Shown here in pieces: positions 50,888 through 61,402 of a DNA stretch of 64,000 nt (position 1 is its first letter; each line of letters starts with the position of its first letter). The notes beneath the pieces are model-generated. The model was given only the letters and a program-made list of their open reading frames with translations. It was not told the origin of the DNA and did not search any database. A program made the translations under genes and the position numbers. The stretch comes from Paenarthrobacter nicotinovorans (GTDB lineage: Bacteria; Actinomycetota; Actinomycetes; Actinomycetales; Micrococcaceae), in the NCBI RefSeq assembly GCF_021919345.1, contig NZ_CP089293.1:2976001-3040000 (forward strand), given 5' to 3'.

Positions 50888-51817
50888 ATGACTGTCCCTT
50901 TGATGAACAACAGCACCGCCGTGCCCGCAAGACGACGCTGGTCCGGTCGCAGCCGCAAGGACTTCGTGGTGTTCCTTGCCATGGCCTTGCCCAACCTGAT
51001 CCTGATCGGCACGTTTACCTACTGGCCCCTGATCATCAACATCTACTACTCCACACTGGACTGGACCTTGGGCTCGGCCTCGGCCACCGTTGTCGGGCTC
51101 CAGAACTACGTCACGTTCTTCACCAGTGAGGATGCGTCCAAGGTCCTCGGAACCACGGCCATCTTCACGGTGTTCACCGTAGGCGGCTCCATGATCCTTG
51201 GCCTACTGGTGGCCCTCGCGCTCAATTCGAAAGTCCGTGGAACCACCTTCGCCCGGTCAGCGGTGTTCGCGCCCTACGTACTCTCCGGAGTGGGCGTCGG
51301 CCTGGTGTGGCTGTTCATCTTCGATCCCGGTTACGGAGTGCTGGCCTGGATCCTGCGCGGACTCGGGCAACAGAGCCCGCAATGGATCAACGATCCGCAG
51401 CTGTCCCTGGTGATGGTCATCATCGTCTACGTGTGGAAGAACCTGGGCTACTGCGCCGTGGTTTTCCTGGCAGGGTTGCAGTCCCTTCCCCGCGACGTGA
51501 TGGAGGCCGCGGCACTGGATGGTGCCAACAGTTTCCGGCGGTTCTTCAACATCTCTTTGCCGCTGCTCTCCCCCACCACGTTCTTCCTGCTCATCACCAC
51601 CATGCTCAGCTCCTTGCAGGCCTTCGACCTCATCCGCATCATGACCCCTCTGGGCAACGGCACCAGCACGCTGATCTACGAGGCGTACCTGCAGGCCTTC
51701 GGGGCATACAACCGGGCAGGCTATTCGGCCGCAATTTCGGTGATCCTCTTCGCCATCCTGCTGGTCATCACCGTCCTCCAACTGCGGTTCGTTGAGCGAA
51801 AGGTCCACTATTCATGA
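50888..51817 (+). CDS. Carbohydrate ABC transporter permease, MalF/UgpA type
   Basis: 309 residues with six transmembrane segments (first at about 27-47). The EAA loop that docks the ATPase is EAAALDGANSFRRFFNISLP (about 205-224). It pairs with the next permease; the solute-binding lipoprotein follows. The order permease-permease-binding protein is usual for CUT1 importers of oligosaccharides or glycerol phosphates. No ATPase gene is in the locus, so a shared MsiK/UgpC-type ATPase elsewhere is likely. No regulator gene is adjacent. Start ATG 50888 (weak GTGAG upstream); ATG 50903 is possible. Confidence 0.92.
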   Translation: MTVPLMNNSTAVPARRRWSGRSRKDFVVFLAMALPNLILIGTFTYWPLIINIYYSTLDWTLGSASATVVGLQNYVTFFTSEDASKVLGTTAIFTVFTVGGSMILGLLVALALNSKVRGTTFARSAVFAPYVLSGVGVGLVWLFIFDPGYGVLAWILRGLGQQSPQWINDPQLSLVMVIIVYVWKNLGYCAVVFLAGLQSLPRDVMEAAALDGANSFRRFFNISLPLLSPTTFFLLITTMLSSLQAFDLIRIMTPLGNGTSTLIYEAYLQAFGAYNRAGYSAAISVILFAILLVITVLQLRFVERKVHYS

Positions 51818-52734
51818 GCGCCCCTGCACCCGTCGTCGTGCGTGAAGAACCCCAACAGACTGCTTCACCGGAGGGTCCGCCCGCCAGGCCCAACCCCCTG
51901 TCCAGGTCCAATCTCCTCCAGACCGTGGCCACCGGCTATGTTCCCCTGATCGTCGCAACGCTGGTGGTCTTCCTGCCGCTGCTGTGGATGCTCCTGAGTT
52001 CCTTCAAGCAACCCGGCGAAATCGTCACCATGGACCTTCGGATCCTTCCCCAGTCACTGAACCTGCAGAACTACGTCACGGCCATGACCACCGTTCCGTT
52101 CGCACAGTTCTTCGCCAACAGCCTGATCGTCACCATCGTGGGCTCGTCGGTCAAAGTGGTTCTGGCAATCCTCACCGCCTATGCCTTGGTGTTCGTGCGC
52201 TTCCCGTTCAAAAACGTGATCTTCGTGCTGATTCTTGTGGCTCTTATGGTCCCCGCGCAGGTGTCGATCCTGCCCAACTACATCCTGATCGCCGGCATGG
52301 GCGGAAAGAACACCCTGTGGGGCATCATCCTTCCCGGGCTCGGCACGGCGTTCGGCACGTTCCTCCTGCGCCAGCACTTCCTGACGCTGCCGCCGTCGAT
52401 CCTTGAAGCGGCGGAGATTGACGGCGCCGGACACTGGCGCAGGCTGTGGCAGATCATCGTTCCCGTGTCCGTCCCGTCGATCGCCACCGTGGCGCTCGTG
52501 ACCGTGGTCAGCGAATGGAACGACTACATCTGGCCCCTCATCATCACGGACCGGCCCGAAACCATGACGCTTCCGGTAGGACTGACCCTCCTCCAGAACT
52601 CCGAAGGCAACGGAGCCGGCTGGGGAATCCTCATGGCCGGCGCGGTACTGGTGATCGTCCCCATCCTGCTGGTCTTCGCAGCACTCCAGCGCTACATCGT
52701 TGCCGGTCTGACCCAAGGCAGTGTCACCGGTTGA
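51814..52734 (+). CDS. Carbohydrate ABC transporter permease, MalG/UgpE type
   Basis: 306 residues. A Pro-rich N-terminal tail (EEPQQTASPEGPPARPNP) precedes six transmembrane segments. The EAA loop is EAAEIDGAGHWRRLWQIIVP (about 193-212), and the C-terminus LQRYIVAGLTQGSVTG is the MalG-type end. Overlaps the upstream permease by 4 bases (ATGA), so they are translationally coupled. The binding-protein gene starts 49 bp downstream. Confidence 0.93.
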   Translation: MSAPAPVVVREEPQQTASPEGPPARPNPLSRSNLLQTVATGYVPLIVATLVVFLPLLWMLLSSFKQPGEIVTMDLRILPQSLNLQNYVTAMTTVPFAQFFANSLIVTIVGSSVKVVLAILTAYALVFVRFPFKNVIFVLILVALMVPAQVSILPNYILIAGMGGKNTLWGIILPGLGTAFGTFLLRQHFLTLPPSILEAAEIDGAGHWRRLWQIIVPVSVPSIATVALVTVVSEWNDYIWPLIITDRPETMTLPVGLTLLQNSEGNGAGWGILMAGAVLVIVPILLVFAALQRYIVAGLTQGSVTG

Positions 52735-52783
52735 TTCTCCACCACACCATTCGCATCAAAGTCAGTAATTGAGAGGAAGCATC

Positions 52784-54130
52784 ATGCGCACCAACCTTGA
52801 CCGCCGCCATTTCCTGGGATTGGCAGGCCTCGGAGCCGGAGCAGCGGCCCTCGCCGCATGCGGCGGACCGTCGACGGCGGGCACGGCAGACGCCGTCGAC
52901 ACCGCCACTATCGACTTCAGTGGCGTCAAGCCGGCCGCCTCCATCGACTTCTGGACGAACCACCCCGGCAAGTCGCAGGATGTGGAAAAGGCGATCATCG
53001 AGAAGTTCCACGCCAAGTTCCCCGATATCAAGGTCAACCTGGTCACCGCGGGCGCCAACTATGAAGAGATCGCGCAGAAGTTCCAGACGTCCCAGGCAGC
53101 CAAAACCGGTCTGCCCGGGCTGGTTGTGCTCTCCGACGTTTGGTGGTTCCGCTACTTCTCCAACGGCAGCATCATCCCCATCGATGGCCTGGTGAAGCAG
53201 CTGGACATCAAGATCGACGACTTCCAGAAATCGCTGGTCGACGACTACAAGTACGACAACAAGCAATGGGCCCTTCCGTACGGCCGTTCCACCCCCTTGT
53301 TCTACTACAACAAGGACCACTTCAAGGCAGCAGGCCTGCCGGACCGCGCACCGGCCACGTGGCAGGAGTTCGCCGAGTGGGCTCCCAAACTCAAGGCCAC
53401 CTCCGGAGCGCAGTACGCCTACATCTACCCGGCCCTGGCGGGCTATGCCGGGTGGACGCTGCAGAACAACCTGTGGGGTTGGGGCGGTGCCTGGTCCAAG
53501 GGCTGGGACATCACCTGCGACTCCAAGGAATCCGTGGCCGCGCTTCAGTGGGCCCAGGACTCCATCTACAAGGATGGCTGGGCCGGTGTTTCATCCAAGG
53601 AGGCCGCTGACGACTTTGCCGCCGGAATCACCTCGTCCACCATTTCTTCCACGGGTTCGCTCCTGGGGGTCCTGAAAGCAGCCAAGTTCAACGTGGGTGT
53701 CGGGTTCCTTCCCGGCGGTCCCGAGGTCCCGAGCAGCGTCTGCCCTACCGGCGGTGCGGGTCTCGGCATTCCCAGCGGCATCACCAAGGAGGAGCAGCTG
53801 GCCGCGGCAACCTTCCTTAAATTCATGACCGAGCCGGAGAACACTGCCGCGTTTTCAGCCGCCACCGGCTACATGCCCACCAGGCTCTCGGCAGACATGT
53901 CCTCTGTTCTCGCGGCCACTCCGCAGATCAAGACAGCCATGGACCAGCTCGCTGCCACCAAGGTCCAGGACAACGCCCGCGTGTTCCTGCCGGGCGCCGA
54001 TCAGGAAATGGCCAAGTCAGCAGCCAAAATCCTCACGCAGCAGGGCGATGTCCAGGCGACCATGACCGAGCTGAAGAAGACGCTTGAGGGCATCTACACC
54101 AAGGACGTCAAGCCGAAGCTGAAGTCCTGA
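52784..54130 (+). CDS. Extracellular solute-binding lipoprotein (UgpB/MalE-like)
   Basis: 448 residues. The signal peptide has twin-arginine LDRRHFLGLAGLG and lipobox LAAC (about 25-28), so the protein is probably exported folded by Tat and lipid-anchored outside. The SBP-1 fold is shown by IDFWTNHPGKSQDVEKAIIE and ALPYGRSTPLFYYNKDHFKAAGL near residues 165-187. The TEPENTAAFSAATGYMPTRL end is typical of sugar or glycerol-3-phosphate binders. GAGAGGAA lies 5 bases before the ATG at 52784. Confidence 0.92.
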   Translation: MRTNLDRRHFLGLAGLGAGAAALAACGGPSTAGTADAVDTATIDFSGVKPAASIDFWTNHPGKSQDVEKAIIEKFHAKFPDIKVNLVTAGANYEEIAQKFQTSQAAKTGLPGLVVLSDVWWFRYFSNGSIIPIDGLVKQLDIKIDDFQKSLVDDYKYDNKQWALPYGRSTPLFYYNKDHFKAAGLPDRAPATWQEFAEWAPKLKATSGAQYAYIYPALAGYAGWTLQNNLWGWGGAWSKGWDITCDSKESVAALQWAQDSIYKDGWAGVSSKEAADDFAAGITSSTISSTGSLLGVLKAAKFNVGVGFLPGGPEVPSSVCPTGGAGLGIPSGITKEEQLAAATFLKFMTEPENTAAFSAATGYMPTRLSADMSSVLAATPQIKTAMDQLAATKVQDNARVFLPGADQEMAKSAAKILTQQGDVQATMTELKKTLEGIYTKDVKPKLKS

Positions 54131-54148
54131 CCCCTCTGGAAAAAACAA

Positions 54149-54180
54149 AAGAGCGCGGCTACTTCGGTAGCCGCGCTCTT
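54149..54180. terminator. Bidirectional terminator with UUCG loop
   Basis: Perfect 14-bp stem AAGAGCGCGGCTAC and its complement with a TTCG tetraloop. An A-run lies on the left, so on the minus strand a T-run follows. It sits between the convergent ABC operon (plus) and map (minus) and can stop both. Confidence 0.9.
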
Positions 54181-54193
54181 CCTTTTGGAGCAG

Positions 54194-55021
54194 TTACGGG
54201 ATGGGGACAGGCACGACGCCGAGGGGCGCCAATTGCTCTGCGCCTCCATCGGGGGCGGACAGCACCCAGATGCCCTTTTCATGCACTGCTACGGAGTGCT
54301 CCCACTGGCAGGAACGCTTGCCGTCAGTGGTGACCACGGTCCAGTCGTCGTCGAGGGTGGCCGTTTCGATGCCGCCGCGAACCAGCATTGGCTCAATCGC
54401 AAGGCACAAGCCCGGGCGGATCTTCGGACCACGGTGGCTGGTCCGGTAGTTCAGGACATCAGGTGCCATGTGCATTTCGGAACCGATGCCATGGCCGACG
54501 TAGTCCTCCAGGATGCCCAGCGGCTTGCCCGGGACCGAGGAGACGTAGTCATCGATGGCGTTTCCGATGTCTCCCACGAACTTGCCCTTGGCCAAGGCAG
54601 CGATACCCCGCCACATGGCGGCCTCGGTGACGTCCGACAGCCGCTGGTCCTCGGGATCCGCGGTGCCCACGATGACCGTCCGCGCCGAGTCGGAGTGCCA
54701 GCCATCCACGATGCAGCCGCCGTCGATGGAGATGATGTCTCCGTCTTGGAGGACGCGTCCACCGGGGATGCCGTGGACCACTTCCTCGTTGACGGAGGCG
54801 CAGATGGTCGCCGGGAACCCGTGGTATCCGAGGAAGTTGGACTTGGCTCCTGCGTCATTGAGGACTGCTGCAAAGACGTCGTCCAGGTCCTTGGTGGTGA
54901 CGCCGGGCTTGGCAGCCGCAACGGCAGCGTCCAGTGCCCTGCTCAGGACAAGCCCGGCCTGCTGCATCGTACGCATCTGCTCGTTGTTCTTATATTCAAT
55001 GCGGGGCTGACCGAACGCCAT
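54194..55021 (-). CDS. map: Methionine aminopeptidase, type I
   Basis: 275 residues. It removes the initiator Met from nascent proteins. The metal ligands are recognisable: Asp in ISIDGGCIVDGWHSDSARTV (about 101-120), His in GHGIGSEMHMAPDV, Glu in LCLAIEPMLV, and Glu in CQWEHSVAVHE. Conserved HGFPATICASVNEEVVHGIP contains the substrate His. AGAGGAG precedes the ATG. It sits only 33 bp after the OleD-like gene on the same strand, with no terminator, so it probably depends on transcription from the inserted cluster. Confidence 0.97.
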   Translation of the reverse strand: MAFGQPRIEYKNNEQMRTMQQAGLVLSRALDAAVAAAKPGVTTKDLDDVFAAVLNDAGAKSNFLGYHGFPATICASVNEEVVHGIPGGRVLQDGDIISIDGGCIVDGWHSDSARTVIVGTADPEDQRLSDVTEAAMWRGIAALAKGKFVGDIGNAIDDYVSSVPGKPLGILEDYVGHGIGSEMHMAPDVLNYRTSHRGPKIRPGLCLAIEPMLVRGGIETATLDDDWTVVTTDGKRSCQWEHSVAVHEKGIWVLSAPDGGAEQLAPLGVVPVPIP

Positions 55022-55054
55022 GTTCTCCTCTGGAAGGTTTGCTGTTGGGACCGA

Positions 55055-55966
55055 TCAGGCCCCGTGCTCCAACCATTTTCCCGCATCGGAGACCGTGGTC
55101 GAAATTGGCTCGATTCCCAGCTCGTCCCGCAGCCGGTCCAAACGGTACGTCCGCTGCTTTCCTACCTGGCTGACGGCGTAGCGGGTCAGCTTCGGAGCAC
55201 GGCCCGTAGCCCGCGAAGCTGCTTCCGAAACGGCCGCGAGCGCCATGGCCGCGGGCTCCGGAAGGTAGGTGACGGGGACGTCGCTGCGTCCTGAAACATC
55301 GAGTACCTGCCGCAATACAGCCCCCAGCTCCACAGGCTGGGCATCCCCCACGTTCACCGCACCGCGCACCGTCGACTGGCAGGCGGCCAGGACGGCCCGT
55401 GTCAGGTTGTCTACATGGGTCAGTTGATGTTTCACCCCGGGGTGCCCGATGCTGAGCAGCCGCCCTGCACGAATGTTGCTGACGAGGCGGGGCAACAGCG
55501 TCCGGTCACCCGGGCCGTACACGGCGTGGGGACGCAGTGCCACGGCATCGCCGTGTTTCCTGGCTTCGACGTCGGCGAGCGCCTTGCTGCGTCCATAGGC
55601 ATTCAGGTGTCGCGCAGCAACCTCATCTTCGGGGCGATCCACGCATGGTTCCCACCACGGATAGACGCTGGAGCTTGAGATATGGACCAGGCGTGTCCCG
55701 GCGAACGCTTCGGCGACCGCCCTTGTCCCCTCGACGTTTGCCCGGTGAAAAACGGCAGCGTCTCCCCAGTCGGCCACCTGGGCACCGGCGTGGACAACCG
55801 CATCCACGTGCGGAAGCCGGGCAGGCGGCAGCCCCGCCAGGTCCCAGTACTCCAAGCCCTCTCCCTGGCGGCGGGCATAGCGGACGACGTCCCAGCCACG
55901 GGCTTCAGCCGCATCCGCCACGGCTCCTCCAACGAACCCCGTCGCGCCTGTCACTGCAATCCTCAC
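55055..55966 (-). CDS. NAD(P)-dependent epimerase/reductase, OleD-like (3-beta-HSD family)
   Basis: 303 residues, short-chain dehydrogenase of the extended class. Nucleotide-binding AVTGATGFVGGAVADAA at 4-20; catalytic Ser region ISSSSVYPWW (about 98-107); catalytic YGRSK (Tyr-x3-Lys) at about 128-132; then VALRPHAVYGPGD and HVDNLTRAVLAA. In olefin/beta-lactone clusters OleD reduces the 2-alkyl-3-ketoacid made by OleA to the 3-hydroxyacid. That role is inferred from fold and from the OleA- and OleC-like genes upstream. Overlaps the ligase gene by 4 bases (GTGA); map follows at 33 bp. Confidence 0.83.
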   Translation of the reverse strand: MRIAVTGATGFVGGAVADAAEARGWDVVRYARRQGEGLEYWDLAGLPPARLPHVDAVVHAGAQVADWGDAAVFHRANVEGTRAVAEAFAGTRLVHISSSSVYPWWEPCVDRPEDEVAARHLNAYGRSKALADVEARKHGDAVALRPHAVYGPGDRTLLPRLVSNIRAGRLLSIGHPGVKHQLTHVDNLTRAVLAACQSTVRGAVNVGDAQPVELGAVLRQVLDVSGRSDVPVTYLPEPAAMALAAVSEAASRATGRAPKLTRYAVSQVGKQRTYRLDRLRDELGIEPISTTVSDAGKWLEHGA

Positions 55967-57684
55967 GTGGCCTCCCCGGGGTCCCGGCGTGCGGCAAACA
56001 TCCCGCGCAGGGCCACCCGGTCCGGCTTCCTGTGCCTGCCGGAGGATGGGATGGATTCCACGACTTCGATATGGTCCGGAAGGGCGGACTCGTCGATGAG
56101 CATGGGCAGTTCCCTGGCCAGCCGAGACTTCAGCTCAACAGCGGATTGGTCCGGTTCAGGGACCACCGCCAGCCATACCGCCTCGTCTCCGATAGTGTCC
56201 GGTACCCCCACCATGACGGCAGTCCGGACCCCTTGCACAGCTGCGATGACCGGCTCATACAACGCGGGGTAGATGTTTGTCTTACCCCGGATGATCATGT
56301 CCTTCTTGCGTCCGATCATGACCAGCCTGGGCGCACCGGTTCCTCCGTGGTCCAGCCGGACGAGGTCGCCAGTGGCGTGCTCCACCATGGGGTCCTCGCC
56401 CAAGTAGCCACGGCACATGTTCGGCCCACGGGCGAACAGCTCGTGGTCGGCTGCTACGCGGATCCCGACGGCGGGCAGCGGCTCCCCGAGGAAGTCGCCC
56501 TCACCGCTGCCATCGGGCGCAGTGAACCCGGCTTCGGCGCCGGACGCGAAGGCCAGTTTCTCCCGGCCATCGGCAATGGCGATGGGCAGCACCTCGGTCA
56601 TGCCGTAGATGAGTTTGAACCCGACCCCGGGCAGGAGCTTCATTGCCCGTTCAAGGAAGGGAGCAAGGATGGGGGCGGCCCCCAGCATCACTGTTCTCAG
56701 TGTCGCGGGCAGAGTGACGGAACCGTCTTCGATGGCGTCCAGGATGGGCGCCAGTTGGGAGGGCACCAGGAAAAGGTGCGTGGCGGCGTCGTACGACGTT
56801 TCTTTGCCGGCCACGGCACCCAACTCGCCGGCCAGGCGAAGCGGGTCGATGTGAGCCGAGAAACCATAACCGGGCATCGTCCAGTGGGCGCCGGCGATCA
56901 AGGCCGGAAGGCCCATCATGAGCTGCTCGGAGTGGATCCGGTCCCCCTCACCGAAGCTGCAACGCGTCGATAATTGCCCGAAACCTGCTGCCAGGGAACC
57001 CCTCGTGTGAATGACCCCTTTGGGTGAGCCGGTGGTACCGGAGGTGAAGATGATCACCGCTTCCTGTTCGGTCACCGTTTCTGTGGGTCTGGCGGATTCT
57101 TGCCCCTGAGGGAGTGTTGCCGCAAGCCCTTTTACCGGCGAAGCGCCGCGGGGGACGCCGGGGAGCCACGGCCCGGAGTAGTAGTGGCGGACATCCATGG
57201 CCCCGTAGTCCGGGAGCAGCAGGCCGCGGCCGCGTGCGATGGGACGGAGCGGGCTCCTGGCGCTGACGGCATACAGGAGTGACTCCGACGCGGCCCAGCG
57301 CGGCGCAGCGAGTTCTGCCCGGTCCCGGAAGAGCGAAGGCCCTATGCCGGGATCGATGAACACCACGGAGCCGCCCGCCCTGACGGCTCCAAGTGCCAGA
57401 ATGAACGCTTCGGGACTGGGACGGACCGAGAAGAGCATCCGCTCCCCTGTCCCGAATCCGTCATCCTGCAAACGCCGGGCCGTGGCCTCAATGCCATCCA
57501 CCAACTCGCGGTACGTGATGGTACGACCGGGCCGGACGCCGTCGTTTCTCCGCCGTGCCCACGGTGGCCGGCTTTTGCCTGGTGCCGTGATGGCGGGACG
57601 GTCCGGAACACGGTCCGCCACGGCATAGACGGCGGTGATCAGATCCTCTGCCATCAGGGGTAGGCCGGGTGTCTCGTCAGGCAT
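55963..57684 (-). CDS. AMP-dependent synthetase, OleC-like (beta-lactone synthetase type)
   Basis: 573 residues, ANL superfamily. P-loop FTSGTTGSPKGVIHTRG (about 216-232), the A5 block YGMTEVLPIA, the A7 Asp in GDLVRLD, the hinge GRKKDMIIRGKTNIYP, and the A10 Lys in SSGRHRKPDRVA. OleC of olefin clusters uses ATP to turn a 3-hydroxyacid into a beta-lactone; fold and context suit this, but the same fold serves acyl-CoA ligases. No alpha/beta-hydrolase (OleB) domain is fused, unlike the OleBC fusion described in Micrococcus. Overlaps the P450 gene by 8 bases and the OleD-like gene by 4. Confidence 0.85.
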   Translation of the reverse strand: MPDETPGLPLMAEDLITAVYAVADRVPDRPAITAPGKSRPPWARRRNDGVRPGRTITYRELVDGIEATARRLQDDGFGTGERMLFSVRPSPEAFILALGAVRAGGSVVFIDPGIGPSLFRDRAELAAPRWAASESLLYAVSARSPLRPIARGRGLLLPDYGAMDVRHYYSGPWLPGVPRGASPVKGLAATLPQGQESARPTETVTEQEAVIIFTSGTTGSPKGVIHTRGSLAAGFGQLSTRCSFGEGDRIHSEQLMMGLPALIAGAHWTMPGYGFSAHIDPLRLAGELGAVAGKETSYDAATHLFLVPSQLAPILDAIEDGSVTLPATLRTVMLGAAPILAPFLERAMKLLPGVGFKLIYGMTEVLPIAIADGREKLAFASGAEAGFTAPDGSGEGDFLGEPLPAVGIRVAADHELFARGPNMCRGYLGEDPMVEHATGDLVRLDHGGTGAPRLVMIGRKKDMIIRGKTNIYPALYEPVIAAVQGVRTAVMVGVPDTIGDEAVWLAVVPEPDQSAVELKSRLARELPMLIDESALPDHIEVVESIPSSGRHRKPDRVALRGMFAARRDPGEAT

Positions 57685-58876
57685 GGGCCAACTCCAACTT
57701 CCGATACCCGGGAATCAGCACTCCCCTGCTGACCTGGCGGGCAGCGATCAACCACGGCCGCTGGGCGTACATGTCCAGGAGCAGCTCGAGCGTCTTGTTG
57801 ATTTCCGCCATGGCAAGCGGCATGCCGATACAGAAATGCGGTCCGGCACCGAACCACAGTTGACGTGCCTGCTGTGGTGTTGCCTGTGCCGGATCAAATC
57901 CACCCAGGCTCTTGGCTGCGTGGATGGTTGAGAGCAGGATCCTGTCCCCGGCGAAGACCTTCGTACCGCCTATGTATCCATCAACCACTGCGTCCCGCAG
58001 CATCATGGGCGAAGGAACCGTGAAGCGCAGGGCCTCGTTGACGGCGGCCGGAACAACGGACCTGTCCGCGGCCAGTTCACTGAGCCGTCCACTGTCAGCA
58101 AGCAACGCCACCAGCCTTGGCACAAACGACACCAGCGTCTCGGTGCCCACCATCACGAACGCACTGATGATGCCCATGGCTTCGTCCTCTGCCATACCGA
58201 GCTCACGCAGCCTGCCGGGGAAGGTATCCGGGTCGCTTTCCCTGTACGCCGTCCGGACCGGTCCAGCCAAAACCGCGACGGCGGATTTTCCCCTGGCCAC
58301 TTGGCCCGCCGTCAGCGTCGGCCGGCCCAGGCGGACAAGCGACGAGATGGAGGAGCCGAGGTCGAAAAGCTCCCTGTCCGCCAGCCTCCCCGGGGCATCG
58401 TCCGGAACCCCCAGCAGGCGCGAGATGACCCCGCCGGCCAGTTCTTTGACGCAGTCCACCAGATCCACGCGGCCGTTCGCGTCCAAATCACCGTGCAGGC
58501 GCGCCTTCAGAGCTGCCGCTGCCGGTTCCACGATGCCCTCCACGGAGCGGGGAGTGAAAAGGTCACCCAGGCGCCGCCGCAGCAGCCTGTGTTCCTCACC
58601 ATCCATGTTCACCAAGGCCTTGGGCCCCACAACGGGGGTCCACAGCGCACCCGAGCCTGATGGGCCGTTCTTGACGTAGGCGTCCTGGCTCATCAGCACC
58701 TCCCGAACCAGTCCCGCTTCGCTGACCAGCACACCGAGTCCCGGGATGCGAACCACAGGACCCATGGCACCCAGGCCGCGGATCACGGGATACAACACGG
58801 GGTGGGCTCCCAGATGGACGCGGCGCTCCCAACGTTCCGCCGTACACTGCGGGTTGATCGCTGCAAGGCCCCGCAT
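57677..58876 (-). CDS. Cytochrome P450
   Basis: 399 residues. The heme-ligating Cys (about 349) is in FGAGPHFCIGMPLA, the canonical bacterial class I pattern. The I-helix has the VGTET threonine motif, and the K-helix ExxR is EALR in VNEALRFTVPSP. The heme-loop sequence argues against the CYP152/OleT fatty-acid decarboxylase type. The ATG at 58876 shares a base with the glycosyltransferase stop (TGATG). An earlier ATG at 58948 would overlap that gene by 73 bases. Its redox partners are not in the window. Substrate unknown; a lipid chain is suggested by context. Confidence 0.93.
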   Translation of the reverse strand: MRGLAAINPQCTAERWERRVHLGAHPVLYPVIRGLGAMGPVVRIPGLGVLVSEAGLVREVLMSQDAYVKNGPSGSGALWTPVVGPKALVNMDGEEHRLLRRRLGDLFTPRSVEGIVEPAAAALKARLHGDLDANGRVDLVDCVKELAGGVISRLLGVPDDAPGRLADRELFDLGSSISSLVRLGRPTLTAGQVARGKSAVAVLAGPVRTAYRESDPDTFPGRLRELGMAEDEAMGIISAFVMVGTETLVSFVPRLVALLADSGRLSELAADRSVVPAAVNEALRFTVPSPMMLRDAVVDGYIGGTKVFAGDRILLSTIHAAKSLGGFDPAQATPQQARQLWFGAGPHFCIGMPLAMAEINKTLELLLDMYAQRPWLIAARQVSRGVLIPGYRKLELAHA

Positions 58877-59673
58877 CACCGGATATCCACGTGTTCGGGG
58901 CGGTACCGGTGGTCCGCGTACCAGGCGAGAGTGTTCTTCAGCCCCCACGCTTTGACCCGTCGGGAGGAACCGAACACCACAACATCGCGTCGAAGGGCGT
59001 AGTTGCGCGTCAATTTACGCACCCGGTTGGACAAGGCGCGGTCCTCATGGAGATCTTCGATCCTGGTCCTGGGGAAACCCCCTGAACGGTGATACATGTC
59101 TGCGGTGATGGCCATGTTGCAACCAGGAAGCATCTGGTACGGACCCAAGTATCCCTCGCCCTTGTTTCCCGGGCGGATCCGGCCGAAGAACGACGCCACC
59201 TCGACGGCCAACAACATCATGATCCGCTCCCGGGCAGTTATGCCCTCGTCCTCCCTGGGATTCAGCTGTCCGGCAACCAGCTCCAGGCCGTCATCGAATG
59301 CAGCCATGATCCGCTCTGTCCAGTCCGGTGCGGCCAGGCAATCGGCATCGGTGCGGGCCAGCCAGCGCGCACCGTGCTCCACGCCGAAGCGCATGCCGGT
59401 ATCAGCTGCCGCGCCCGTGCCCTTCTCGCTGTCGTGAACCAATCGGACATCCATCCCCGGGTGCGCTGACGCGAACTCAGTCACGATGGCGCAGCTGAGA
59501 TCCGTGGAGCCGTTGTCCACCACCACTACCGTGAAATCCTGAAACGTCTGCGCCGCCAGCGAATCCAGTGCCTGCCGTACCAGCTTCTCTTCATTGAGCA
59601 TCGGCATGGCCACGCATAAGGACTTTGTGGAAGCCGTACTCGCAAGCCTGTTGCGAATCTCTTGCGGGCTCAC
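58876..59673 (-). CDS. Family 2 glycosyltransferase
   Basis: 265 residues. The GT-A fold starts CVAMPMLNEEKLVRQALDSL. VVDNGSTDLS (52-61), the DAD metal-binding motif at about 109-111 (LARTDADCLAAPDW), and a catalytic-base ED in TRIEDLHEDRALSNRV are seen. The C-terminus has no membrane helix. Donor and acceptor are unknown; neighbours suggest transfer of a sugar to a lipid or a lipid intermediate. The GTG start overlaps the OleA-like stop by 4 bases. Confidence 0.88.
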   Translation of the reverse strand: MSPQEIRNRLASTASTKSLCVAMPMLNEEKLVRQALDSLAAQTFQDFTVVVVDNGSTDLSCAIVTEFASAHPGMDVRLVHDSEKGTGAAADTGMRFGVEHGARWLARTDADCLAAPDWTERIMAAFDDGLELVAGQLNPREDEGITARERIMMLLAVEVASFFGRIRPGNKGEGYLGPYQMLPGCNMAITADMYHRSGGFPRTRIEDLHEDRALSNRVRKLTRNYALRRDVVVFGSSRRVKAWGLKNTLAWYADHRYRPEHVDIR

Positions 59674-60713
59674 AGCCGCACCACCGCCATTCCCAGGCTC
59701 ACGCCGCCGCCCAAACCGACCAACGCCACCAGGTCCCCGGGTCCGGCCCTGCCACTGTCCACGGCAAGCTTCAGTTGCAATGGAAGGCTGACGGAGGCGA
59801 GGTTTCCGAAGTCCTCAACGGAATGAACCAGCAAGTCCGCAGGCACACCGGCACCTTCGGCGAATATTTGCCGGTACGGTGCGCTGACCTGGTGTACGCA
59901 GACGACAGCGAAGTCCGTCCACGCGAGGTGCATCTCCGCGAGAGTCGCATCAAGGATGTCGGAGCCGAGGTCCAAGAACGCATCCTTGAGCTTTTCCCCG
60001 TCCATGTTGAAGTAGCTGGCCTCTGGATCACGGGGGAAGGCCGACCCTCCCGCCGCCAAGGTACCCACGGACCAATGGCTGCTTCGCGCGGTGAAGCCCA
60101 TGGCCAGGATTCCGGCCGCCCCGTCTGCAGCTGCGGCGGGATCAACCGCGGCCTCCAGCAACACTGCTGCGCCGCCGTCGCTCATGGTGTACCCGGGGAA
60201 GCTGGAGGCGAACGTCGGGAAGTCCGGCACCGACCACCGCACCGCCCGGGAAGGCGACTCCCCCGTGACCACCAGAACCCTCCCATAGCGCCCTCCGGCG
60301 ATCAGAGCGTCGGCAACCTCCATACCGTTGAGGAAACTGTTGCAGGCGTTCTTGACGTCCATCACAGGGCATGAAAGTCCCAGTTTCGCTGCCACCATGT
60401 GTCCCGTAGCGGGTTCAACCATGTCCTGGCTGGCAGAGGCAAAGACCAGCAGGTCCACGTCAGGTGCCTGCAATCCGCATTCCGCCAGGACCTTGGCAGC
60501 GGCGTTGGCGGCCAGATCCGACGCCTGCTCCGTCGGGGACATGACACTCCTCGAGCGGATCCCCGTGACCCGGCCAATCAGACCTGTCGGCACGCGGAAG
60601 CCAGGGCTGGATTCGGCAATGCGGCGTTCGACGGCGGCCGTATCCAGCCGCGTCGGTGGCAGGTAGACCTCAAGCCCCGAAATCCGGCTACGTCCTGACA
60701 GAGCTGTCTGCAT
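59670..60713 (-). CDS. OleA-like acyl-condensing enzyme (thiolase superfamily, KAS III type)
   Basis: 347 residues. Catalytic residues: Glu about 100 in SQDMVEPATGHMVAA, Cys about 124 in MDVKNACNSFLNGM, His about 274 in VCVHQVSAPY, and Asn about 304 in DFGNLASVSL. The VEP Glu is the feature that separates OleA from FabH: OleA uses it to deprotonate one acyl chain for head-to-head Claisen condensation of two acyl-CoAs. That residue assignment is from memory of the Xanthomonas enzyme. The ATG at 60713 has GGGGGAA just upstream; the frame's first ATG lies in the adk terminator. First gene of the inserted five-gene cluster. Confidence 0.85.
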   Translation of the reverse strand: MQTALSGRSRISGLEVYLPPTRLDTAAVERRIAESSPGFRVPTGLIGRVTGIRSRSVMSPTEQASDLAANAAAKVLAECGLQAPDVDLLVFASASQDMVEPATGHMVAAKLGLSCPVMDVKNACNSFLNGMEVADALIAGGRYGRVLVVTGESPSRAVRWSVPDFPTFASSFPGYTMSDGGAAVLLEAAVDPAAAADGAAGILAMGFTARSSHWSVGTLAAGGSAFPRDPEASYFNMDGEKLKDAFLDLGSDILDATLAEMHLAWTDFAVVCVHQVSAPYRQIFAEGAGVPADLLVHSVEDFGNLASVSLPLQLKLAVDSGRAGPGDLVALVGLGGGVSLGMAVVRL

Positions 60714-60747
60714 GCGCTTCCCCCAAGAATGTGCCGCTTCAACGAAA

Positions 60748-60786
60748 AAGGGTGTGTCCCGCACCCATGGTACGGGACACACCCTT
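60748..60786 (-). terminator. Terminator of secY-adk
   Basis: Perfect 14-bp stem AAGGGTGTGTCCCG and complement followed on the minus strand by a T-run. It lies 38 bp past adk and 35 bp before the OleA-like ATG, marking the boundary of the insert. Confidence 0.88.
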
Positions 60787-60823: not shown

Positions 60824-61402
60824 CTAGACAGCCTTGGCCGACTCGATGGCTGTGAGCACGCGGTCGGTAACTTCATCGATACCGCCGATGCCATCCACCT
60901 GAGTAAGGATGCCGCGCTCAGCGTACTTGGCCACAACGGCTTCGGTCTGCTCGTGGTAGAGGTCAAGACGGTGACGGATCACGGCCTCGTTGTCGTCCGA
61001 ACGTCCCGTTTCCTTGGCACGGCCCAGAAGGCGTGCAACCAGTTCTTCGTCATCCGCGGTCAGCTGGAGCACGACGTCGAGCTCCTGCTCACCCTCAGCG
61101 AGGATCTGGTCGAGGTAGTCAACCTGCGCGGTGGTGCGCGGGTAGCCGTCGAGCAGGAAGCCGTTCTCGACATCGCTCTGGCTCAGTCGATCGCGAACCA
61201 TGTTGTTCGTGACGCTGTCCGGAACGAAGTCACCGGCGTCCATGTACTTCTTGGCTTCGATACCCAAGGGCGTTTCACCCTTGACGTTGGCACGGAAGAT
61301 GTCGCCGGTGGAGATGGCGACTACGCCGAGGCGCTCCGAAATCCGCTCAGCCTGCGTACCCTTGCCCGAACCGGGAGGTCCAATGATCAGCATTCTCGTC
61401 AT
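60824..61402 (-). CDS. adk: Adenylate kinase (short form)
   Basis: 192 residues, catalyses ATP + AMP to 2 ADP. P-loop LIIGPPGSGKGTQAERI (5-21); AMP-binding DGYPRTTAQVDYL; LID region is the short type (GRAKETGRSDDNEAVIRHRL) without a zinc-finger. Its ATG overlaps the secY stop by 4 bases. Followed by a strong terminator. Confidence 0.98.
   Translation of the reverse strand: MTRMLIIGPPGSGKGTQAERISERLGVVAISTGDIFRANVKGETPLGIEAKKYMDAGDFVPDSVTNNMVRDRLSQSDVENGFLLDGYPRTTAQVDYLDQILAEGEQELDVVLQLTADDEELVARLLGRAKETGRSDDNEAVIRHRLDLYHEQTEAVVAKYAERGILTQVDGIGGIDEVTDRVLTAIESAKAV

Follow-up and report, generated by a model that had tools for sequence, protein, structure and literature searches.

A second, diverged ole gene set carrying a cytochrome P450 and a glycosyltransferase between adk and map of Paenarthrobacter nicotinovorans, with a tailored beta-lactone lipid as its candidate product

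Which product is expected from a set of OleA-, OleC- and OleD-type genes that has no OleB of its own and is instead combined with genes for a cytochrome P450 and a glycosyltransferase? This question is raised by a stretch of 64,000 nucleotides of the Paenarthrobacter nicotinovorans genome (4.48 Mb; C1:2976001-3040000, contig NZ_CP089293.1), called the window hereafter and used for all coordinates without a prefix. As an earlier note made from the DNA letters had described, five minus-strand genes are inserted there between adk and map. They encode an OleA-like head-to-head condensing enzyme (59670..60713, 347 amino acids, with an ATG start preceded by the ribosome-binding-like stretch GGGGGAAG), a GT2 glycosyltransferase (58876..59673, 265 amino acids, assigned by Pfam family and motif alignment), a cytochrome P450 (57677..58879 with its start corrected), an OleC-like acyl-AMP-forming ligase that is a candidate beta-lactone synthetase (55963..57684, 573 amino acids) and an OleD-like NAD(P)-dependent 2-alkyl-3-oxoacid reductase (55055..55966, 303 amino acids). 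The reported overlaps of 1-8 bases were borne out, being 4 bases for OleA/GT2, 8 for P450/OleC and 4 for OleC/OleD. At the GT2/P450 junction, GGTGATG, the overlap is 4 bases if the P450 starts with the GTG at 58879 and 1 base if it starts with the ATG at 58876; the listed open reading frame start at 58948 is too far upstream, making the gene longer than a related one (locus L044) suggests.

The broad families of the cluster proteins were confirmed by Pfam and NCBIfam. The best-fitting NCBIfam models scored far under their curated cut-offs (PRK09258, 168 of 285 bits; PRK09274, 140 of 478; OleD, 113 of 580), indicating that the cluster represents a diverged subfamily. The GC content of the cluster is 62-67%, compared with 59-66% in the surroundings, and a clear foreign mark is absent.

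Conservation of the set was examined among named genomes, in which 161 relatives of the OleA-like protein were found; the best 80 loci, from 31 named genera and 10 named families with a few lacking a named rank, were studied. Eight of them were excluded from the count of gene order because their contigs end too soon, and in 67 of the other 72, which reach 6.5 kb or more downstream, the order was A-GT-P450-C-D. The exceptions were L077, with OleC on the opposite strand, L084, with A and C only, and L106, L108 and L122, where OleD was not found. L077 belongs to Rhizohabitans arisaemae, in which the OleC-like gene is inverted within the cluster (L077:11907-13427, minus strand), and L084 to Actinomadura craniellae, where matches to the GT2, P450 and OleD-like proteins were not found at the locus. 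A different order, A-GT-C-P450-D, was seen in two class-level relatives (G226 and G406, loci L182 and L183), whose OleA-like proteins are 48% and 45% identical. The ratio of nonsynonymous to synonymous substitution rates (dN/dS) was 0.05-0.20 in 14 of 15 comparisons (five genes, three relatives), values that are rough since dS was 0.67-2.3; the remaining one, a P450 pair, gave no ratio because the aligned stretch held a TGA, read by us as a sign that the alignment extends beyond the start codon. Because the order is conserved in 67 of the 72 usable loci and the genes are under purifying selection, the cluster is more than a chance arrangement and, as judged from these comparisons, is real, conserved and probably functional.

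Within this spread, carriers are few. A window-type OleA (E < 1e-100) was present in 5 of 37 same-genus genomes, the own genome included, and in 1 of 22 other genomes in the set of relatives, and an even draw across the phylum, scored with five candidates per genome, gave 3 of 396 genomes, again with the own one, matching at E up to 1e-60. These low counts indicate that the distribution is patchy and rare. Among the relatives listed, from which records very close to the window may be missing, the named one with the highest OleA-like identity (96%) is Paenarthrobacter histidinolovorans.

The absence of OleB from the cluster, as a separate gene or fused to OleC, was upheld, since Pfam gives no OleB-kind hydrolase domain in the five proteins. 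The further supposition of the earlier note, that no OleB exists elsewhere in the genome, was overturned by a whole-genome search. A canonical oleA-oleBC-oleD locus, recognized by homology and domains, is located at C1:2019736-2024521 (L043:7736-12521), about 1 Mb from the window cluster. Its OleA scores 460 bits with PRK09258, above the cut-off, and its OleBC of 914 amino acids has an alpha/beta-hydrolase domain ahead of an AMP-binding domain. The genome therefore holds OleB as part of an OleBC fusion within a full olefin-type locus, and the idea of an OleB-free genome was rejected. The canonical OleA, OleBC and OleD are 27%, 26% and 30% identical to the window proteins, and no P450 or GT2 match was found near the canonical locus in the fetched 20 kb. 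The window cluster is thus a second, diverged ole set in the same genome. The explanation that the earlier note had set against its own proposal, in which plain alkenes and an OleB encoded elsewhere explain the pathway, is half borne out: OleB is present, but as part of another complete locus that has an OleA and an OleD to itself.

When the flanks of the related clusters (at most 9 kb, less where a contig ends) were searched by tblastn with the own OleB domain at E up to 1e-6, OleB was found in none of the 80. The same query was run against 12 chosen genomes. A strong match lay in a frame also holding OleC in the own genome (G000), G008, G029 and G041, and G043 had a strong match (62%) within a frame of 1265 amino acids. 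This search gave no match in G005, G012, G020 and G022, a single weak partial one in G016 (E 1.7e-6) and only weaker ones in G226 and G406 (best E 5.2e-16 over 128 residues). Three of the five same-genus carriers of the cluster (G005, G016 and G020) are without a convincing OleB; the own genome holds the fused OleBC, and the carriers G008 and G043 have an OleB-type match; the genome scan also listed no canonical-type OleA match in these three. With OleB in 0 of 80 flanks and convincingly in neither of these three genomes nor the cluster itself, the window cluster still looks OleB-independent by homology.

The kind of condensation was judged from conserved residues. For the residue counts over the related loci of each gene, three genome-repeating loci were removed, the window row was added and loci covering less than 60% of the query were left out; 85, 82, 81, 80 and 73 of 85 loci were usable. 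The Glu, Cys, His and Asn claimed for the condensing enzyme were all found (E100, C124, H274 and N304), the first three in each of 83 aligned rows and N304 in 82. E100 is followed by P101 in all 83 rows, and Smith et al. (2020; PMC7064751) place such a Glu-Pro pair at position 117 of the Xanthomonas enzyme, with the Glu as general base. This catalytic Glu was present in 29/29 window-type and 26/26 canonical rows and in 0/13 FabH-like rows, a label assigned from the tree and the HQAN motif; at that motif the window-type enzymes carry HQV, as OleA does. The residue pattern thus favours OleA over FabH. Among PDB entries, the best matches are headed by 3fk5 and 3row, both named 3-oxoacyl synthase III; we take 3row to be OleA of Xanthomonas campestris. 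In a quick OleA tree the seven Micrococcaceae window-type rows formed one clade.

The OleA search pattern published in PMC7158056, EPxx[AS]x(14,18)DxxNACL, is not matched by the window enzyme, which has NACN in place of NACL, and the N (N125) is found in 83/83 rows. The pattern would therefore miss the window-type enzymes, whose subfamily signature is EPAT...DxKNACNS. As a separate observation on the own genome, a protein encoded at L004 (G000:C1:2236838-2240089) resembles a type III polyketide synthase, as judged by eye from its translation.

The other enzymes also retain the residues expected for activity in their families. In the OleD-like reductase, Y124 and K128 (Tyr-x3-Lys) and G7, G10 and G13 (GxxGxxG) are found in 72/72 rows, and OleD was the best NCBIfam model, below its cut-off, for the window protein as for 3/3 further members scanned. 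The GT2 protein has D109 and D111 (DxD) and H209-E210-D211-R212 in 81/81 aligned rows. In the P450, where ExxR, GTET and the heme Cys are all present, C373, R308 and T271 are found in 79/79 rows and E305 and E270 in 78. A second P450, 29-43% identical to that of the window and often divergent from the oleA-like gene, was found in the fetched stretch of 33 of the 80 loci (for example L097:7469-8872 and L101:7656-8888, both minus strand, by homology to the window P450), in Promicromonosporaceae, Microbacteriaceae, Cellulomonadaceae, Pseudonocardiaceae and other families. The 18 Micrococcaceae loci showed none near the cluster; when the own genome was searched with a query from L097 (E up to 1e-15), only the P450 of the cluster matched.

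From these families a pathway can be proposed. The OleA-like enzyme would carry out a non-decarboxylative, head-to-head condensation of two acyl-CoAs, giving a 2-alkyl-3-keto acid, which the OleD-like enzyme would reduce to the 2-alkyl-3-hydroxy acid. The P450 may hydroxylate an alkyl chain and GT2 may attach a sugar to the hydroxyl so made, while the OleC-like enzyme would adenylate the carboxylate and then close the beta-lactone ring. The lactone would be the end product because a dedicated OleB is lacking. The substrates, the order of the tailoring steps, the sugar and the beta-lactone itself are all predicted from family membership. We judge the chances to be about even that the cluster encodes a specialised Ole-type pathway, additional to the canonical one, whose product is a long-chain lipid that is hydroxylated, glycosylated and closed to a beta-lactone. 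As for the product suggested in the earlier note, a tailored lipid instead of a plain alkene is indeed most likely, given that the OleA-, OleC- and OleD-type genes are accompanied by a P450 and GT2 and by no OleB of their own, but the description of it as novel did not survive, since PMC7064751 contains this cluster type.

Several results weigh against the beta-lactone pathway, and three other products were considered. The ligase is the point at which an open-chain product would arise, namely a 2-alkyl-3-hydroxy acid glycoside, resembling a short mycolate-like glycolipid, or its ester, with the OleC-like enzyme making an acyl-CoA or acyl-AMP for transfer. Of 7 further cluster ligases, 5 score higher with the general long-chain acyl-CoA ligase model PRK06187 and 2 with PRK09274, and the window ligase retains the stretch KDMI..G..NIYP, which is shared with the own-genome ligases L006 and L008 and absent from canonical OleC. 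The NCBIfam model for olefin beta-lactone synthetase, named for Xanthomonas-type proteins, gives 90 of 900 bits, under its cut-off. The comparison with OleC and other ligases that the earlier note had proposed came out on the side of OleC: in a tree with 6 other ligases, which contains long branches, the 18 OleC-like rows formed one clade with 7 canonical OleC (support 99/93), as in an earlier quick tree (88 by SH-like approximate likelihood ratio test). The A10 lysine K553, conserved in 75 of 78 rows, also sits in an RKPDR-type stretch that is closer to the canonical RHNAKIDR than to SGKIRK/SGKVRK of L008/L006. On this balance of sequence features the ligase is an unproven candidate for lactone formation, and an open-chain product is unlikely, although it deserves serious weight.

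If the condensing enzyme were FabH-like, using a short extender on acyl carrier protein, the product would be a tailored fatty acid or small polyketide with no head-to-head dimer. PRK09258 is the top NCBIfam model for the window enzyme and 1 of 4 further members, but in the other 3 the FabH-type PRK09352 is slightly above it, the scores being close. The approximately unbiased test rejected a clade with neither canonical OleA (p 0.49) nor FabH (p 0.22), the clans being joined by long branches, and a firm placement by tree was dropped as unproven. The invariant Glu-Pro, the HQV motif and the regular association with OleC-like and OleD-like genes nevertheless make a FabH-type reaction improbable. 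A separate point against the beta-lactone pathway is that Actinoplanes OleA, once purified, gave no condensation with any of the acyl-CoAs tried in PMC7064751 (C8-C16), although the preparation had precipitated. The fused OleBC, present here and in G008, and a further, weakly matching OleB-like hydrolase (C1:2867966-2868670; 30%, E 2.2e-10) count against an OleB-independent product in another way, as the canonical OleBC could decarboxylate the lactone in trans so that the cluster feeds the olefin pathway and yields a tailored alkene. This we consider very improbable, because three same-genus carriers have the cluster with no convincing OleB, none of the 80 flanks searched yielded it and the canonical locus owns its OleA and OleD.

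The beta-lactone pathway is also the one for which a precedent is in print. The account of Actinoplanes atraurantiacus in Smith et al. (2020; PMC7064751) names OleA, a glycosyltransferase, OleC, a P450 and OleD, gives the genome as one without an oleB candidate, and predicts a hydroxylated, glycosylated beta-lactone; in cells, the OleA acted on p-nitrophenyl esters. The five protein kinds, the lack of oleB in the cluster and the predicted product are all the same as in the window. The differences are that OleC is named before P450, an order found in L182 and L183, and that the Actinoplanes genome is reported without OleB whereas the present one has the fused OleBC. From gene content, the two clusters appear to be akin. 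By its OleA, C and D kinds without oleB, the window cluster also matches the third type in Fig. 6 of that article, the OleB-less oleACD beta-lactone cluster. The nocardiolactone and lipstatin clusters, described there as oleACD-type sets that yield beta-lactones without oleB, were compared with the window by description only (PMC7413640 mentions the former as well). Lipstatin has two OleA homologues, LstA and LstB, acting as a heterodimer according to the same description, whereas the window has one OleA-like gene, plus the P450 and GT2. The canonical Micrococcaceae locus, as outlined for olefins in PMC7158056, shares the OleA, OleC and OleD types with the window set and occurs in the same genome, but has OleB fused to OleC and NACL in OleA, in contrast to no OleB and NACN. 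In the open-licence PMC literature we recognized neither a product nor a later study of such a cluster, and the antiSMASH 'betalactone' regions in Arthrobacter kin, in the reports as accessible, were not attributable to the window cluster or the canonical ole locus. Thus, the cluster kind and its predicted product are already in print; what is new here is the spread, the subfamily signature, the adk/map site, the coexistence with a canonical ole locus, the order variants and the frequent second P450.

The insertion site is shared within the family, adk and map flanking the cluster in all 18 named Micrococcaceae loci of the 80. In the window, adk (60824..61402, minus strand, named from its sequence and its place behind secY) forms the upstream edge, and map, encoding methionine aminopeptidase (54194..55021, minus strand), lies 33 bp behind the OleD-like gene, a distance borne out from the coordinates. 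Among 25 same-genus map loci, the OleD-like gene is beside map in 5 and adk directly precedes map in 20, with a spacing in the latter of 80-226 bases by alignment edges. The interval between adk and the oleA-like gene contains an intrinsic-terminator-like hairpin, GGGTGTGTCCCG...CGGGACACACCC followed by TTTTT (60745..60784, minus strand), which recurs in relatives that carry the cluster, L044 and L049 for example. A strong hairpin was found after adk in cluster-less relatives too (17 of 20 intervals viewed whole, the other 3 cut at 170 bases), many of these hairpins being without a T-run. These patterns suggest that the adk hairpin is probably older than the insertion and that the cluster came to lie behind it, sharing its run with map. 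Within 60713-60784, only about 30 bases separate the T-run from the ATG of the oleA-like gene, and a promoter scan gave 0 sigma-70-like sites.

Behind map, a hairpin scan gave another strong terminator-like hairpin (54147..54182, minus strand), and genes at 50888-54130 (plus strand) whose translations, inspected by eye, resemble a sugar ABC transporter with one binding protein and two permeases converge on map. In other families the neighbours of the cluster differ, so that the five genes look like the mobile unit. Ten proteins were scanned to represent the flanking families that recur, nine having Pfam domains (ABC transporter, ilvD-type, TPP enzyme, pterin/glyoxalase, molybdopterin oxidoreductase, alpha-amylase, GHMP kinase, DegT aminotransferase and rRNA dimethylase) and one having none. 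They vary by family and gave no clue to the product; the gene caller was crude, with some of its picks on the wrong strand.

Taken more broadly, the data hint that the distinct OleA subfamily marks widespread, unrecognised actinobacterial glycosylated and hydroxylated long-chain beta-lactones, made beside olefins in some Micrococcaceae, without any OleB in others, and with two P450s in other families; this we hold tentatively and regard as falling somewhat short of even. Because the prediction was printed in 2020, the locus is a testable case more than a surprise. Beta-lactones of this pathway type include medically used enzyme inhibitors, lipstatin being named in PMC7064751, and a five-gene set conserved in ten named families with no product found in the literature is a clean target for isolation. 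With the canonical ole locus in the same genome, both lipid products could be read from one strain; the cluster would also show how OleC-type enzymes stop at the lactone without OleB.

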